Source: Solobacterium sp. (GTDB taxonomy: Bacteria; Bacillota_I; Bacilli_A; Erysipelotrichales; Erysipelotrichaceae). Taken from it: a stretch of DNA of 19,860 bases. The position numbers were made by a program, and so were the translations under genes. Position 1 is the first letter of the stretch. Every line of letters begins with the position of its first letter. Positions 7,202-17,365 of the stretch are shown one piece after another. Under the pieces are notes generated by a model. It was not told where the DNA came from. It did no database searches and saw only the letters and a list, made by a program, of their open reading frames with translations. Where the stretch lies: the NCBI GenBank assembly GCA_016291725.1, contig JAEEYJ010000103.1, forward strand, positions 1 through 19,860, in the 5' to 3' direction.

Positions 7202-9214
7202 ATGGACTTCATGGACGCTTACCGCCGGATCTATGCATCCTGGCTGGGAAAATGCATCGGTGTACGCCTGGGCTCTCCCATAGAAAACTGGACCTGGGAA
7301 CAGATCCGGAAGACCTATGCCCCGATCCACGGCTATACCACGGATTACGGGCAGTACGCTGCAGATGATGATCTCAACGGACCGTTGTTCTTTGTCCGTG
7401 CCATGGAGGATCACACCATAGATGAAGTAACCCCGGAAGACATGGGCAGCAATATGCTCAACGTAGTCGCTCCCCTGCACGGCTTCTACTGGTGGGGCGG
7501 ACCGGGCATCGCCACCGAGCATACCGCCTACGCCAATCTGCAGAACGGCATCAAAGCACCCGCTTCCGGCTCTGCCGCAGTCAACGGAAAGACCATCGCG
7601 GAACAGATCGGCGGACAGATCTTCTCCGACTGCTGGGGATTCCTCTCCCTGGGCAATCCGAAGGAAGCCGCGGACCTTGCAGCAAAGATGAGCTCCGTCA
7701 CCCATGATCTGGACGGCATCGAAGGAGGCAGGTTCGTTGCGGCATGCATCGCTCTTGCCTGGCATATGCACGATGCTCGCACAATCATCGAAGAAAGCCG
7801 GAAATACCTCGATCCGAAGAGTTCCTATACAGCATTGATCAATGAATTCCTTGCCTTCCATGAAGCGCATCCGGAGGATGCACAGGCCTGTCTGGACTAC
7901 ATCCATGCGCATCATGGCTATGACAAATATGATGGTGTCTGCCACATTCTCCCGAATACCGCCATCATGCTGTACGGCATGCTGTACGGACACAATGACT
8001 TCAGCGGAACCATGCGCCTGATTGCGGAAGCCGGCTGCGATACCGACTGCAATCTTGGAAACGTCGGTGCAATCATGGGCATGATGCTCGGTCTGGAAGG
8101 CATCGATGAGAAGTGGATACTCCCCTTCAACGATATCCTCCTGTCCAGTTCCGCTCTCGGTGCCCGCAACATCGATACCATCTCCGGCACTGCCCTGTAC
8201 TTCACAAAGCTGGCCATGAAACTCCATCATCTGCCTGCAGAAGAAGTATCCCCGTTTGCAGTCCCCTATGCCACCCACGGCTTCCGGGCAGAAACGAACG
8301 CGGATCACGCTGTACACACCGATGCGAGGCACGGTGCCCTGCGCCTGATCATTGACCGCCTGCTGGCAGGAGAATCCTTCCGTATCTGGAAAACAACGTA
8401 CTTCCGGGCGGAAGATGTCTATGATGTACGCTATGAACCGCAGTTCACCGGCCTGCTGGAACCCGGGGATACTGTAGAATTCACCATCAGCACCCCGGAC
8501 AGTCTCCCCCTGTCCTTCACACCGTACATCAAAGACCATGACGGAAAGATCACAGCAGGAGAGAAAGCACAGGCCGGAACGGTCTGCTGGACCGTACCGG
8601 GCGGTGCCCTGCCTTTGCTGGAGACCGGCCTGATCGTAGAAGGATCCGAATACATAGAAAGAACTCTGTTCATCATCACAGACTTCCGGATCATCAAGCA
8701 CCCTTCAGCTACCATCGACTTCACAAAGACGACTGTAGAGGACTGGGGAACAGATATCGGTCTGGTGCACCGGTACGGTCTGTCCAACCTGGTCATCCAT
8801 GAGGGGCAGGCACACAAAGCGGAAGAAGGCGTCCTTCTGGATCCGCACAGTGCCATCAACTTCAGCGGACCGGACACTCTCTACCGCTTTGCGGAACTGA
8901 AGGTCAAAGCAGATGAAGAAACAGACCTGCTCTTCTCCTGGACCTACCGGGGTGTCCGCCGGCATACTGGCCTGCATATCCGCGGCAGCCGGGCTTCCCT
9001 CTATCACCGCTGGGACGATGACGGGACGGATACCGCTCTGGGCAGCTTCCCGGCAGCGGAAGATATGCTCACCCTGTGCTATGACGGGAATACCATCTCC
9101 GTCAACGGATACTCGTTCCCCGCTGCTGGACTGAAGGAACAGCGCGGTGCCCTGCTGGTCAAAAATCTCTCGGAAACCCCGCTCTGCATTGTCGAATGCA
9201 CCTACAGAGGATAG
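7202..9214 (+). CDS. Large ADP-ribosylglycohydrolase-family protein with C-terminal beta-rich region
   Basis: A 670-residue protein with no signal peptide or membrane segment, so probably cytoplasmic. Residues 1 to about 340 match the all-helical ADP-ribosylglycohydrolase (DraG/ARH) fold: GKCIGVRLGSPIE at 16-28, an acidic metal-binding run Asp55-57 in AADDDL, and the second metal motif CDTDCNLGNVGAIMG at 279-293. Family enzymes use two Mg ions to cleave N- or O-glycosidic bonds to ADP-ribose. Residues about 350-670 are beta-rich; the final part (about 555-665) looks like a LamG/concanavalin-like sandwich, which may bind a ligand. AGGAGG stands 8 bases before the ATG. The nucleoside hydrolase gene follows by 4 bases, so both probably degrade a ribosyl compound, which is an inference. 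The true substrate is unknown. Confidence 0.85.
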   Translation: MDFMDAYRRIYASWLGKCIGVRLGSPIENWTWEQIRKTYAPIHGYTTDYGQYAADDDLNGPLFFVRAMEDHTIDEVTPEDMGSNMLNVVAPLHGFYWWGGPGIATEHTAYANLQNGIKAPASGSAAVNGKTIAEQIGGQIFSDCWGFLSLGNPKEAADLAAKMSSVTHDLDGIEGGRFVAACIALAWHMHDARTIIEESRKYLDPKSSYTALINEFLAFHEAHPEDAQACLDYIHAHHGYDKYDGVCHILPNTAIMLYGMLYGHNDFSGTMRLIAEAGCDTDCNLGNVGAIMGMMLGLEGIDEKWILPFNDILLSSSALGARNIDTISGTALYFTKLAMKLHHLPAEEVSPFAVPYATHGFRAETNADHAVHTDARHGALRLIIDRLLAGESFRIWKTTYFRAEDVYDVRYEPQFTGLLEPGDTVEFTISTPDSLPLSFTPYIKDHDGKITAGEKAQAGTVCWTVPGGALPLLETGLIVEGSEYIERTLFIITDFRIIKHPSATIDFTKTTVEDWGTDIGLVHRYGLSNLVIHEGQAHKAEEGVLLDPHSAINFSGPDTLYRFAELKVKADEETDLLFSWTYRGVRRHTGLHIRGSRASLYHRWDDDGTDTALGSFPAAEDMLTLCYDGNTISVNGYSFPAAGLKEQRGALLVKNLSETPLCIVECTYRG

Positions 9215-9218
9215 AAAC

Positions 9219-10154
9219 ATGGCAAAAAGAAAAATCATCATTGACTGCGATCCCGGACATGACGATATTATGGCCATCCTGATGGCCCTGGCCCATCCGG
9301 AGGAGCTCGAACTGCTCGGCCTCACCACCGTTGCCGGCAACAACCACATGCGTCAGGTGACCGAAAATCTCCTGCGCACTCTGACCTATCTTGGACGTAC
9401 AGACATTCCTGTATCCATGGGCTCGGATACAGCACTGGTCCTGGATCCCGAGCCGCAGGACGCCCACGGCATCACCGGTCTGGACGGCTTTGACTTCCCT
9501 GAGCCGGCCTTCACACCCGTCAAGGAACGCGCTGTGGAATTCATGAAGAACTGCATCCTGGGCAGCGAAGACAAGGTCACCATCATCGCCCTCGCTCCGC
9601 TTACGAATGTTGCCCTGCTGGTACTGGCCTGTCCGGAAGTGAAAGCAAAGATTGAACAGATCATCCTGATGGGCGGCTCCGTCTACCGCGGCAACATGCT
9701 TGCCCGTTCTGAATTCAACATCTACGCCGATCCCCACGCGGCTGAAGCCGTCATGCGCAGCGGCGTGCCCGTGGTCATCGCTCCCCTGGAAGTCTGTGAT
9801 GACTGTCTGATCAGTGAGGATGACATCAAACGCTGGGAACAAACCAAAAAGCCTGCAGCACAGCTGTGCGCAGGCCTGATGAACTTCTTTGCAGGCTACG
9901 GCAGAAAACGGGGCTGGACACAGTTCACCGTCTTCGACCTGACAACGATCATGTATCTGCTGTATCCTGAGCGTTTTGAAGGCTTCCGGAGTTCCTGCCA
10001 TGTTGTCCTTGATGGAAAATATACCCGAGGCATGACGGTGATTGATGAAGACGGAAACGGCCATGTTTACACATTGATGAAGGCTGACAGGAAGTACCTG
10101 AACGAACGCTTCCTGGAAGCCATCGACCGTCTCGATGAAGGTTACCCTGTGTAA
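9219..10154 (+). CDS. Inosine/uridine-preferring nucleoside hydrolase family protein
   Basis: A 311-residue nucleoside N-ribohydrolase. The calcium-binding signature DCDPGHDD is near the N-terminus (residues 9-16). Also visible are AHGITG, LAPLTNVA, the ribose-binding block MGGSVYRGNMLARSEFNIYADP, and a late Asp in FDLTTIMYLLYP. Enzymes of this family release free base and ribose from nucleosides. At the late motif, where a His-Asp pair is common, the residue before Asp is Phe, so base activation may differ. I use ATG 9219 because AGAGG lies 8 bases upstream, overlapping the end of the previous gene, and because the protein then starts at the first strand. It is cotranscribed with the ADP-ribosylglycohydrolase gene and ends in a terminator. 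Confidence 0.92.
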   Translation: MAKRKIIIDCDPGHDDIMAILMALAHPEELELLGLTTVAGNNHMRQVTENLLRTLTYLGRTDIPVSMGSDTALVLDPEPQDAHGITGLDGFDFPEPAFTPVKERAVEFMKNCILGSEDKVTIIALAPLTNVALLVLACPEVKAKIEQIILMGGSVYRGNMLARSEFNIYADPHAAEAVMRSGVPVVIAPLEVCDDCLISEDDIKRWEQTKKPAAQLCAGLMNFFAGYGRKRGWTQFTVFDLTTIMYLLYPERFEGFRSSCHVVLDGKYTRGMTVIDEDGNGHVYTLMKADRKYLNERFLEAIDRLDEGYPV

Positions 10155-14363: not shown

Positions 14364-14372
14364 AGAATGATC

Positions 14373-15239
14373 ATGGATATTGAAACACTGCAGTATTACC
14401 TCAGAGTGATCCAGGAAGGAACGATTTCCCGTGCCGCAAGAGCGCTGCACATCGCCCAGCCTGCGCTGTCAAGAAAAATGAAGGATCTGGAAGAAGAGCT
14501 CGGTGTTCAGCTGTTTGTCAGAGGAAACCGGAGAATCGTCCTCAGCGATGAAGGTGTGATTCTGCGCAAGCGGGCAGAGGAGATCGTCCGGCTGATGCAT
14601 ATTGCAGAAGATGAACTGCTGCAGGCAAAGGAGAGGATTACCGGTACTGTACGCATCGGCGCCGGTGAGTCTCGCTCCTTTTCCCTGCTGGCAAAGACCG
14701 CAGGGGAACTGATTGCCGAATATCCGGATATACGGGTCCACATCACCAGTGGTGATACCCAGGATCTGATGGAAGAACTGGACAACGGTCTGATCGACTG
14801 TGCTGTCATATTCACCAATGTGGATCATACAGTCTATCAGACAATTCCTCTGCCTGCGGAAGACCGTTTCGGTGTGCTGCTGCGGAAAGACCACCCTCTT
14901 GCGCAGAAGGAAGAACTGACATTCGAGGATCTGAGGGACATTCCTGTTATGGTATCCCGGGCTTCCGAAAACTGGTTCTCCTCCGTCTCCGGTGACAGTG
15001 CGCTGAATGTAATCGGTACCTACAACCTCATCTACAACGCCTCCCTGCTCGTGGAGAACCGGGTATGCTGTGCGCTTGCCTTTGATGGTCTGATCAATAC
15101 GACCGGCGACAGCCCGCTCTGTTTCCGTCCCCTGGTACCGGCACTCAGCATACGCGGTTCCCTGATCCGCAGGAAATACCAGCCCGCATCCCCTGTTCTT
15201 CAGCATTTCATCGACTGTCTGCAGAACCGTTTCAAATAG
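14373..15239 (+). CDS. LysR-type transcriptional regulator
   Basis: A 288-residue LysR-type regulator. The N-terminal winged helix-turn-helix covers about residues 1-60, with ISRAARALHIAQPALSRK as the recognition region and LEEELGVQLFVRGNR after it. A linker helix follows, then a periplasmic-binding-protein-like effector domain from about residue 90 (VRIGAGESRSF, DCAVIFTNVD, DIPVMVSRAS). I start at ATG 14373, where AGGAG has a 7-base spacer. The ATG at 14367 is only one base from that site. It is divergent from the AKR operon with 116 bases between starts, the classical arrangement for control of the neighbour and of itself. The effector is unknown. Confidence 0.92.
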   Translation: MDIETLQYYLRVIQEGTISRAARALHIAQPALSRKMKDLEEELGVQLFVRGNRRIVLSDEGVILRKRAEEIVRLMHIAEDELLQAKERITGTVRIGAGESRSFSLLAKTAGELIAEYPDIRVHITSGDTQDLMEELDNGLIDCAVIFTNVDHTVYQTIPLPAEDRFGVLLRKDHPLAQKEELTFEDLRDIPVMVSRASENWFSSVSGDSALNVIGTYNLIYNASLLVENRVCCALAFDGLINTTGDSPLCFRPLVPALSIRGSLIRRKYQPASPVLQHFIDCLQNRFK

Positions 15240-15240
15240 T

Positions 15241-15262
15241 TATTTAGATATTATTCTAAATA
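15241..15262. promoter_or_regulatory. Operator copy 1 upstream of the CPBP-SdpR-SdpI operon
   Basis: Perfect inverted repeat TATTTAGA-N6-TCTAAATA (15241-15248 / 15255-15262), beginning two bases after the lysR stop and ending 4 bases before the -35 element. The same arms recur at 15297-15318. The likely ligand is the SdpR-like repressor encoded in the operon. Confidence 0.75.
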
Positions 15263-15266
15263 GTGC

Positions 15267-15295
15267 TTGAATATACATTTCCAATGTGCTAGCTT
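15267..15295 (+). promoter_or_regulatory. Promoter of the CPBP-SdpR-SdpI operon
   Basis: TTGAAT (15267-15272), 17-base spacer, TAGCTT (15290-15295) with an extended -10 TGC just before it. Transcription would start near 15302, inside operator copy 2. The -10 hexamer itself is weak, so the extended TG and bracketing operators carry the argument. Confidence 0.55.
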
Positions 15296-15296
15296 G

Positions 15297-15318
15297 TATT
15301 TAGAGGAATTTCTAAATA
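15297..15318. promoter_or_regulatory. Operator copy 2 overlapping the CPBP start codon
   Basis: The same dyad, TATTTAGA-N6-TCTAAATA (15297-15304 / 15311-15318). Only the 6-base spacer differs from copy 1. The final A is the first base of the CPBP ATG and the Shine-Dalgarno AGAGGA spans the left arm and spacer, so DNA binding would cover the transcription start. The transcript could also fold here into a hairpin. Confidence 0.75.
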
Positions 15319-16181
15319 TGAACAGGAAACCATTATATACCTATCTGGCATTTGCATTCATACCGATCTGGACCGTGTGGATTCTCTGCATTTGGATTCT
15401 CAGGCTTCCCAGTGCCGTCCTTGTTACGGCTGCAGGCATGTGGTGTCCTGCCCTGGCACTGTTCCTGACGGACCGGATCCACCATCTGCACTTTCCCTGG
15501 AAGGACGTGCTGAAGCCGAAAATCAAAGGAAACGGCAGAAGCTATGCCTTTGCCTGGTTCATGCCGGCAGTACTGACCTTTTCCGGTATGATCCTGTACT
15601 TCGTGATCTTCCGGAACCAGTTCGATGCGGAATTCGGGTATCTCAACCAGCAGATCGCGGCGATGGTCCAGCCGCTCACTCCGCCGACGGTCATTCTCAT
15701 CACACTGCTTCAAGTACTGACCTACGCACCGTTGGTCAACTGCCTGCTCGCCGTCGGTGAAGAGCTTGGCTGGCGGGGATTCCTGTATCCCGAACTGAGG
15801 AAATCATTTGCGCCGCTGAAAGCCCATCTGATCACTGCCTTGATCTGGTCCTTGTGGCATCTTCCCATCAACCTGGCCGGCCACAACTATGGCATCCAGT
15901 ATCCTGGCTATCCCTTTGCCGGCATCCTGGCAATGTTCATGTTCTGCCTGAGCATCGGCATCCTGATGAGCCTGCTGTACGAGAAGACCGGCTCCATCTG
16001 GGTCTGCGCCATCATGCATGGTGCAGTGAACGCTGCCGGCAATATGCCGATGATCTTCCAGAAACTGTCGTATATGAACGGTGCATATACCGTACTGGGT
16101 CCTGCGCTCAACGGTATGATTGCCGGGCTGCCCGTACTGGTTCTGGCACTGATCCTGCTGAAGAAAGGAAAACAAGCATGA
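15318..16181 (+). CDS. CPBP family intramembrane glutamic endopeptidase
   Basis: A 287-residue multi-pass membrane protein of the CPBP (Abi/CAAX protease-like) family. The catalytic motifs are Glu148-Glu149 and Arg153 in GEELGWRGFLYPEL, His181 in IWSLWHLP, and His234/Asn238 in HGAVNAAG. About seven to eight hydrophobic segments are visible. Bacterial members are proteases or scaffolds linked to bacteriocin maturation and self-immunity, though most are uncharacterised. The ATG at 15318 follows AGAGGA with an 11-base spacer. An in-frame TTG at 15267 overlaps the promoter and is rejected. The gene overlaps the repressor gene by 4 bases (ATGA) and leads the operon with the SdpR-like and SdpI-like genes. 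Confidence 0.92.
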   Translation: MNRKPLYTYLAFAFIPIWTVWILCIWILRLPSAVLVTAAGMWCPALALFLTDRIHHLHFPWKDVLKPKIKGNGRSYAFAWFMPAVLTFSGMILYFVIFRNQFDAEFGYLNQQIAAMVQPLTPPTVILITLLQVLTYAPLVNCLLAVGEELGWRGFLYPELRKSFAPLKAHLITALIWSLWHLPINLAGHNYGIQYPGYPFAGILAMFMFCLSIGILMSLLYEKTGSIWVCAIMHGAVNAAGNMPMIFQKLSYMNGAYTVLGPALNGMIAGLPVLVLALILLKKGKQA

Positions 16182-16453
16182 GTTTTGCGGATACCTTCAA
16201 AGCCCTGTCTGATCCCGTCAGGCGGGAAATCCTGCAGATGCTGAAGGCAGGCAGGATGTCTGCCGGAGAGATTGCCTCCCGCTTTGATATGACGCAGGCA
16301 TCCGTTTCCTACCACCTCAGTATTCTGAAGAAAGCAGAACTGATCTTCGAAACCAGGGAAGGAACCTTCATCTACTATGAACTGAATGTATCGGTCGTAG
16401 AGGAAGTCATGATGTGGCTCGCAGAGCTGAAAGGAGACACTGGAAATGAATAA
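16178..16453 (+). CDS. ArsR-family autorepressor (SdpR-like)
   Basis: A 91-residue winged helix protein of the ArsR superfamily. FKALSDPVRREILQML opens the fold and AGEIASRFDMTQASVSYHLSILKKA (residues 29-53, recognition helix at about 40-50) is the DNA-binding part. The wing has ETREGTFIYYELN. It has no cysteines or obvious metal-binding pairs, unlike metal-sensing ArsR or SmtB. It therefore resembles SdpR, which represses its own operon and is sequestered at the membrane by SdpI when toxin is bound. The start ATG 16178 overlaps the CPBP stop. The next gene, SdpI-like, overlaps its end by 8 bases. The twin dyads before the operon are the probable binding sites. Confidence 0.88.
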   Translation: MSFADTFKALSDPVRREILQMLKAGRMSAGEIASRFDMTQASVSYHLSILKKAELIFETREGTFIYYELNVSVVEEVMMWLAELKGDTGNE

Positions 16454-17093
16454 ACTGAAAACCGAAAGAACTACGTTGATTCTCACAACGCTGATCATCC
16501 TCCTGCCTATCCTTGCAGGCGTGCTTCTGTGGGACCGTCTGCCGGACCGGATTCCCACCCACTTTGATTTCCAGGGCAACCCGGACGGCTGGTCTTCCCG
16601 CCGTGCAGCTGTCTTCTTCCTGCCGCTTTTCCTGACAGCCGTGCATCTGCTCTGCGCCTTCATTACGGCCTATGATCCGAAGGAAAGAGGTGTCAGCGTG
16701 AAGATCTACCGGTTGATCCTCTGGATTGTACCGGTACTGTCCGTTTTCCTCAACGGACTGGTCTATGCATACGCATTGGGCAAAGACGTCAATATCAGTA
16801 CAGCATCCTATGCTTTGGTCGGCCTGACGTTCATCATCATCGGCAATTACCTGCCTAAAGTCCGCCAGAACATGACGGTAGGCATCAAGATTCCCTGGAC
16901 ACTGGCAGACGAAACCAACTGGAATCTGACACACCGCCTGGCCGGCAGGCTCTGGATCATTGCCGGCATCGTCATTGTTGCGTCAACGTTCATGAGCAAT
17001 TCTGTGGGTCCGTTCGTAATGCTGGGTGCAGCCCTGTGCTGTACGCTGATCCCCTGTGTCTATTCTTTCCTCCTCTACAGGAAAACCCTGTAG
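16446..17093 (+). CDS. SdpI family immunity-type membrane protein
   Basis: A 215-residue membrane protein with about six hydrophobic segments, close to B. subtilis SdpI in length. Residues about 15-60 carry the DUF1648 motif LPDRIPTHFDFQGNPDGW. Residues about 133-165 carry the SdpI signature GNYLPKVRQN followed by GIKIPWTL and THRLAGRLW. In B. subtilis, SdpI protects against the SdpC toxin and also acts as receptor/signal transducer that captures SdpR. GGAG lies 9 bases before the ATG, and the start overlaps the repressor gene. No sdpA, sdpB or sdpC homolog appears in the window, so its toxin partner is unknown or comes from other cells. Confidence 0.92.
   Translation: MNKLKTERTTLILTTLIILLPILAGVLLWDRLPDRIPTHFDFQGNPDGWSSRRAAVFFLPLFLTAVHLLCAFITAYDPKERGVSVKIYRLILWIVPVLSVFLNGLVYAYALGKDVNISTASYALVGLTFIIIGNYLPKVRQNMTVGIKIPWTLADETNWNLTHRLAGRLWIIAGIVIVASTFMSNSVGPFVMLGAALCCTLIPCVYSFLLYRKTL
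17075..17093. other. Inverted repeat at the sdpI-like stop codon
   Basis: CTACAGG, AAAAC, CCTGTAG: a perfect 7-bp dyad that includes the stop TAG (17091-17093). No T-run follows, so it is not a standard terminator. It lies just upstream of the extended -10 of the next gene and could be a weak terminator, mRNA end-protecting hairpin or operator. Confidence 0.4.
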
Positions 17094-17125: not shown

Positions 17126-17365
17126 ATGGAAAACAAACTCGCTGTTGTCGCAATCATTGTCGAGGATCCGGAATCCGTCCGCGCACTCAACGAAACTCTG
17201 CATGAATACAGTTCCTACATCATCGGCCGTATGGGCATTCCCTACCGAGCAAAGCAGCTCTCGCTGATCAGCATCGCACTGGATGCACCGGAAGAGGTCA
17301 TCCACGCACTGAAGCGCCGTCTTGTGGAACATGACGGTGTGCGTGCTGAGATTGTTGAAGCCTGA
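17126..17365 (+). CDS. TM1266-like [FeFe]-hydrogenase-system regulator family protein
   Basis: A 79-residue ferredoxin-like/ACT-type small protein. It resembles the TM1266 family often annotated as iron-only hydrogenase system putative regulator: AVVAIIVEDPESVRALNE at the start, SSYIIGRMGIPYR in the middle, and LISIALDAPEEVIHALKRRL at the end. In anaerobes these genes usually sit with the hydrogenase maturases hydE, hydG and hydF. None of those is in this window. AGGAGG lies 8 bases before the ATG, and the gene has its own extended -10 promoter and terminator, so it is a single-gene unit. The molecular role of the family is not established. Confidence 0.9.
   Translation: MENKLAVVAIIVEDPESVRALNETLHEYSSYIIGRMGIPYRAKQLSLISIALDAPEEVIHALKRRLVEHDGVRAEIVEA

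Follow-up and report, generated by a model that had tools for sequence, protein, structure and literature searches.

In the 19,860-nucleotide stretch of Solobacterium sp. DNA analysed here (the window), three forward-strand genes whose ends overlap one another encode a CPBP protease, an SdpR-family repressor and SdpI, and they are preceded by two copies of an inverted repeat, TATTTAGA-N6-TCTAAATA, on either side of a predicted promoter. The features of the locus are as follows.

15241..15262, no strand: dyad 1, candidate upstream SdpR operator, TATTTAGA-TATTAT-TCTAAATA; exact match, conserved upstream of sdpR operons
15267..15272, + strand: predicted -35 element, TTGAAT; matches the TTGAC position in 55 aligned dyad pairs
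15290..15295, + strand: predicted -10 element, TAGCTT, with TG-N in front; matches the TATAAT position in the aligned pairs
15297..15318, no strand: dyad 2, candidate downstream SdpR operator, TATTTAGA-GGAATT-TCTAAATA; exact match, conserved
15302..15307, + strand: CPBP ribosome site, AGAGGA, where the left arm of dyad 2 runs into its spacer; read from the sequence; the spacer is GGAATT, GGGATT or GGAAAT in six loci of the genus with CPBP at the same place
15318..16181, + strand: gene for a CPBP (Rce1-like) intramembrane protease, 287 aa; PF02517, 70.7 bits
16178..16453, + strand: gene for an SdpR-family ArsR repressor, 91 aa; NF033789, 130.8 bits (cut-off 100)
16446..17093, + strand: gene for SdpI (DUF1648 and SdpI domains), 215 aa; PF07853 and PF13630

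The twin dyads that the first-pass annotation had described were both exact and lay at these coordinates, 56 bp apart from centre to centre. As also described there, dyad 2 covers the predicted transcription start and the CPBP ribosome site and ends on the A of the CPBP ATG (15318). A search of the window at up to three mismatches returned these two dyads only, with 0.03 expected (mean of 200 dinucleotide shuffles), and none of the 200 shuffles reached two. Likewise, no further dyad, exact or with up to two mismatches, was found in the source genome (1.67 Mb, 80.9% complete). Downstream of the operon, sdpI is directly followed by a TM1266-like gene (17126-17365; putative iron-only hydrogenase system regulator, TIGR03959), which has a GC-rich inverted repeat with a T run on its 3' side. 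Farther upstream, positions 7202-10154 hold two adjoining forward-strand genes that by eye encode an ADP-ribosylglycohydrolase-like protein and a nucleoside hydrolase.

In order to follow the dyad through other genomes, we used the best 80 of 587 confirmed SdpR relatives from a scan of genome contigs, a set that leans towards proteins resembling that of the window, and searched up to 3 kb upstream of each locus (213,653 bases in all) together with 222,118 downstream bases. An SdpI relative was present in 79 of these best 80 loci, as in the window, where sdpI lies directly 3' of sdpR, and a CPBP gene in eight. The upstream dyad was found exactly in 63 of the 80 loci, with at most one mismatch in 71 and with at most two in 73, and the downstream stretches contained none within two mismatches. 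Palindromes with permuted arms (100 controls) gave no exact match upstream of the 80 loci, a mean of 0.03 loci (maximum 1) at up to one mismatch and a mean of 0.3 (maximum 6 of 80) at up to two; because one control thus matched six of the 80 loci at the loosest setting, only exact and one-mismatch matches exceed every control. Dyads with other spacer lengths (0-5 and 7-14 bases) were absent from the 80 loci within one mismatch. Five of the seven loci lacking a dyad at up to two mismatches (L093, L120, L132, L133 and L151) have just 22-941 upstream bases; L164 carries a dyad at three mismatches, and L152 has none across 3 kb of upstream sequence.

The dyads are linked to the operon head, whether the first gene is sdpR, CPBP or an ABC-transporter gene. 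In L143, L144, L146, L150, L156 and L167 they stand 2.0-2.7 kb 5' of sdpR, and the genes in between encode, judged by eye, an ABC-transporter ATPase and permease. The linkage spans many genera, including, within the 80 loci, records titled Streptococcus, Paenibacillus, Blautia, Treponema and Chitinispirillales. A less biased, class-level sample of 299 genomes, picked with the family model, contained 95 genes over the cut-off in 92 genomes; a dyad with at most two mismatches was present within 800 bp upstream of 67 of the 95 genes, as compared to 0.6% for permuted-arm controls. The other 28 genes over the cut-off exceed two mismatches, and among them are 11 with His and one with Asn at residue 45. 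The best matches in long upstream stretches had three (G081), two (G104), five (G092), four (G070) and four (G113) mismatches, and L090 and L091 showed no clear dyad. Within the genus itself, SdpR was found at E 1e-20 or better in 24 of 70 genomes (26 genes), and 25 of the 26 sdpR genes had a dyad within three mismatches, the remaining gene being without its operon head. This patchy occurrence of SdpR (24 of 70 genomes) suggests a mobile or frequently lost cassette. One SdpR-family copy (G247:C28:10357-10584) has an in-frame TGA.

Exact dyads were also recorded irrespective of SdpR. In 296 genomes of the class there were 27 such places, 13 of which adjoin an SdpR gene over the cut-off and eight of which have a prfA-type spacer. 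A reading of exact dyads away from sdpR as PerR boxes was dropped, as the copies in L018 and L023 (1501-1522 in each) fall within a prfA-like open reading frame, where they form the codons for LFRMYSKY and appear to be a coincidental palindrome; prfA was recognised by eye, in two of the eight places with a prfA-type spacer.

The first-pass annotation had proposed to look for the dyad ahead of other sdpRI-like operons and to compare its arms with its spacers. Besides the 73 of the best 80 loci with an upstream dyad, this comparison gave, for 136 sites drawn from the same 80 loci, 1.43-2.00 bits for the arm columns and 0.56-1.02 bits for the spacer columns, the latter reflecting mostly A/T bias. 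At short range the distinction is absent: relative to L092, a ruminant-gut MAG titled Solobacterium sp. that is the nearest named relative among the best 80 of 587 (98% SdpR identity), 31 of 32 arm bases and 20 of the 34 bp between the dyads are kept, and since the spacers keep 11 of 12 bases, they are no less conserved than the arms in this pair.

A second dyad at a distance of 52-60 bp was present in 55 of the best 80 loci. Forty-one of these pairs were 56 bp apart, eight 57 bp, three 55 bp, two 52 bp and one 54 bp. When the pairs were aligned, the columns between the dyads displayed TTGAC near their start and TATA-T near their end. The commonest layout, seen in 34 of the 55 pairs, consists of a dyad, 4 bp, the -35 element, 17 bp, the -10 element, 1 bp and the second dyad, and the window matches it (GTGC, TTGAAT, 17 bp, TAGCTT, G), with the 4 bp GTGC between the end of dyad 1 and the -35 element. 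Its -10 element is weak, with three of six consensus letters, and is followed by the single G before dyad 2. A generic promoter scanner run on the window did not list a promoter between the dyads; we assign one because the family alignment of dyad pairs places the -35 and -10 elements there. Read off the -10 element, the transcription start is predicted near 15302, within the left arm of dyad 2.

The narrow distribution of distances bears on whether the two sites might be joined by DNA looping, which the first-pass annotation had suggested, or by an obligatory contact between dimers across the promoter, with selection on the 56 bp itself. We consider this unlikely, although cooperative binding, also suggested there, may occur. 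That 41 of the 55 pairs lie at exactly 56 bp would fit such selection, but in 39 of the 55 the -35 element lies 4 bp from the first dyad and the -10 element 1 bp from the second, whatever the length of the promoter spacer, and these fixed gaps account for the 56 bp without looping, so that the suggestion is not needed. The promoter spacer is 16 bp long in each of the three 55-bp pairs and 18 bp long in two of the eight 57-bp pairs. The other six 57-bp pairs hold 17 bp and lengthen one of the gaps by a base, which, in favour of looping, speaks for a distance not simply tied to the spacer. A distance of 56 bp corresponds to about 5.3 helical turns and places the dyads on different faces of the helix, and the 34 bp between them would make a short loop. 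Furthermore, some loci have a single dyad and others have two that overlap, which also counts against looping.

As to other ARRANGEMENTS, six dyad pairs overlap at 16 bp. The overlapping dyads of L116, L117, L105, L128, L157 and L040, which share a central TCTAATTAGA-like stretch, take the place of two separate dyads. In several genomes of the sister family (L054, L059, L057, L247 and similar loci), a single dyad is accompanied by a further half-site, TATTTAGA, in direct orientation 8 bp away, which is a different multi-dimer layout.

To relate the operator letters to the repressor, we took the upstream DNA of all SdpR relatives collected (271 distinct stretches) and assigned to each stretch the best of 16 symmetric TATTTAxy arm types within 200 bp. 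The innermost arm base (position 8) varied with residue 45 of SdpR. Where this residue was Tyr, the base was A in 111 stretches and G in one, with no site in 21 and too short a sequence in two; with His it was A in 73, ambiguous but including A in 19, C/T in one and G in one, with no site in six. Asn went with A (four stretches) or A/T (three), Arg with C in 16 of 16 and Lys with C in two of two. Gln (n = 10) was found with G (three), T (one), G/T (four) or no site (two), and Glu in one stretch with an ambiguous base. In the class sample, 66 of 78 genes with Tyr, His or Asn at residue 45 had a dyad within two mismatches vs one of 17 with Arg or Gln. A C in the arm is a G on the opposite strand, the base usually contacted by Arg or Lys. 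Residue 42, three positions away in the recognition helix, varied with arm position 7: Thr was paired with G in 135 of 138 stretches, Ser with G in 73 of 90, Ala with A in nine of nine and Gly with A in two of two. Mutual information, computed for those SdpR columns from 3 to 85 that had 100 rows or more, peaked at residue 45 for position 8 (0.49 bits corrected; next 0.26) and at residue 42 for position 7 (0.25; next 0.14).

The association between residue and base has a Fisher p of 1.5e-31, a value that ignores shared descent. On a FastTree phylogeny from which the helix columns were left out, Arg/Lys and C each changed three times, with one independent pair on supported branches, and residues other than Tyr, His or Asn and bases other than A changed six and eight times, respectively, with one supported pair. 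With few independent supported changes behind it, the covariation may owe a part to shared descent. In one genome of the genus (G1034), the SdpR paralogues L374 and L377 combine Thr42 with a GA-type operator and Ala42 with an AA-type operator. We lean, by a modest margin, towards a two-residue/two-base code in the SdpR family (arm position 7 read by residue 42, position 8 by residue 45), carried on a portable dyad-promoter-dyad cassette across records titled Bacillota, Spirochaetes and Chitinispirillales, in which changes in the code would insulate co-resident paralogues from each other.

Taken together, the two dyads are very probably operators of the SdpR encoded in the same operon, with two dimers bracketing the promoter and the operon repressing itself, as judged from sequence comparison. 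This supports the two-site autorepression by the SdpR-like repressor envisaged in the first-pass annotation, in that the dyads recur upstream of sdpR in relatives and their letters vary with the recognition helix. An SdpR dimer on dyad 1 would abut the -35 element, and one on dyad 2 would cover the transcription start, beside the -10 element, as well as the CPBP ribosome site. The two bound dimers would exclude RNA polymerase from the promoter between them and thereby repress the operon, with the recognition helix reading the arms through residue 42 at position 7 and residue 45 at position 8. Binding, repression and occlusion are in this sense predictions.

Translation might instead be controlled by dyad 2, folded as an mRNA hairpin over the CPBP ribosome site, a fold that the first-pass annotation had also put forward; we regard this as very improbable. 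The 22 nt of dyad 2 alone fold at -5.0 kcal/mol (z -3.6; -8.4 with context, z -2.1), and the ribosome site sits in the loop and left arm. However, the start predicted near 15302 falls in the left arm, so that transcripts would lack most of the hairpin's 5' arm. In addition, dyad 1 folds equally well (-5.3) and is equally conserved although it stands 5' of the promoter, many relatives have their ribosome site 3' of dyad 2, the arm letters vary together with SdpR residues, and there was no Rfam match. Least probable of all is that the dyads bind another regulator, either the upstream LysR-type protein (14367-15239), whose stop codon is a single base from dyad 1 and whose family often binds dyads, or a global regulator, since the source genome holds no further dyad for a global regulator, a LysR relative occurs in one of the best 80 loci vs 73 with the dyad, and the operator letters track SdpR's own helix.

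If SdpR acts as an autorepressor on the two dyads and induction follows the B. subtilis type, in which SdpI with bound toxin reportedly pulls SdpR to the membrane and lifts repression, then CPBP, SdpR and SdpI would form an immunity cassette expressed on demand. Immunity and signalling cassettes of the SdpRI type are widespread, and the operator, the promoter geometry and the residue-base code would let the regulation of many unannotated ones be predicted from sequence. The set of dyads and SdpR proteins would also provide a clean test system for specificity change in ArsR-type helices.

The closest known counterpart is the sdpRI operon of B. subtilis, which likewise encodes an SdpR-family repressor followed by SdpI, and for which autorepression is the known mode. 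Given the NCBIfam name 'autorepressor SdpR family', autorepression itself is therefore not new. The operon of the window differs from it in beginning with CPBP and in having, as its candidate operator, a dyad pair around the promoter. The ArsR/SmtB metal sensors CzrA and SmtB, which are among the solved-structure relatives of the window SdpR, share the winged-helix family and repression by an overlapping operator, and the window SdpR also matches NF033788 (87.7 bits, cut-off 55). They differ in that its 91 residues include no Cys and a single His, so that it is no metal sensor of the usual kind, and in the 8-6-8 form of its operator, those of ArsR/SmtB metal sensors being longer imperfect repeats. 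NolR of rhizobia, another solved relative (E 7.6e-7), is of the ArsR type like the window SdpR and has a TTAG core in its operator too, but is a global symbiosis regulator, unlike an sdpRI-type autorepressor. The top solved structure by sequence is SrnR (7p6f, E 4.7e-14), a likeness of protein sequence alone.
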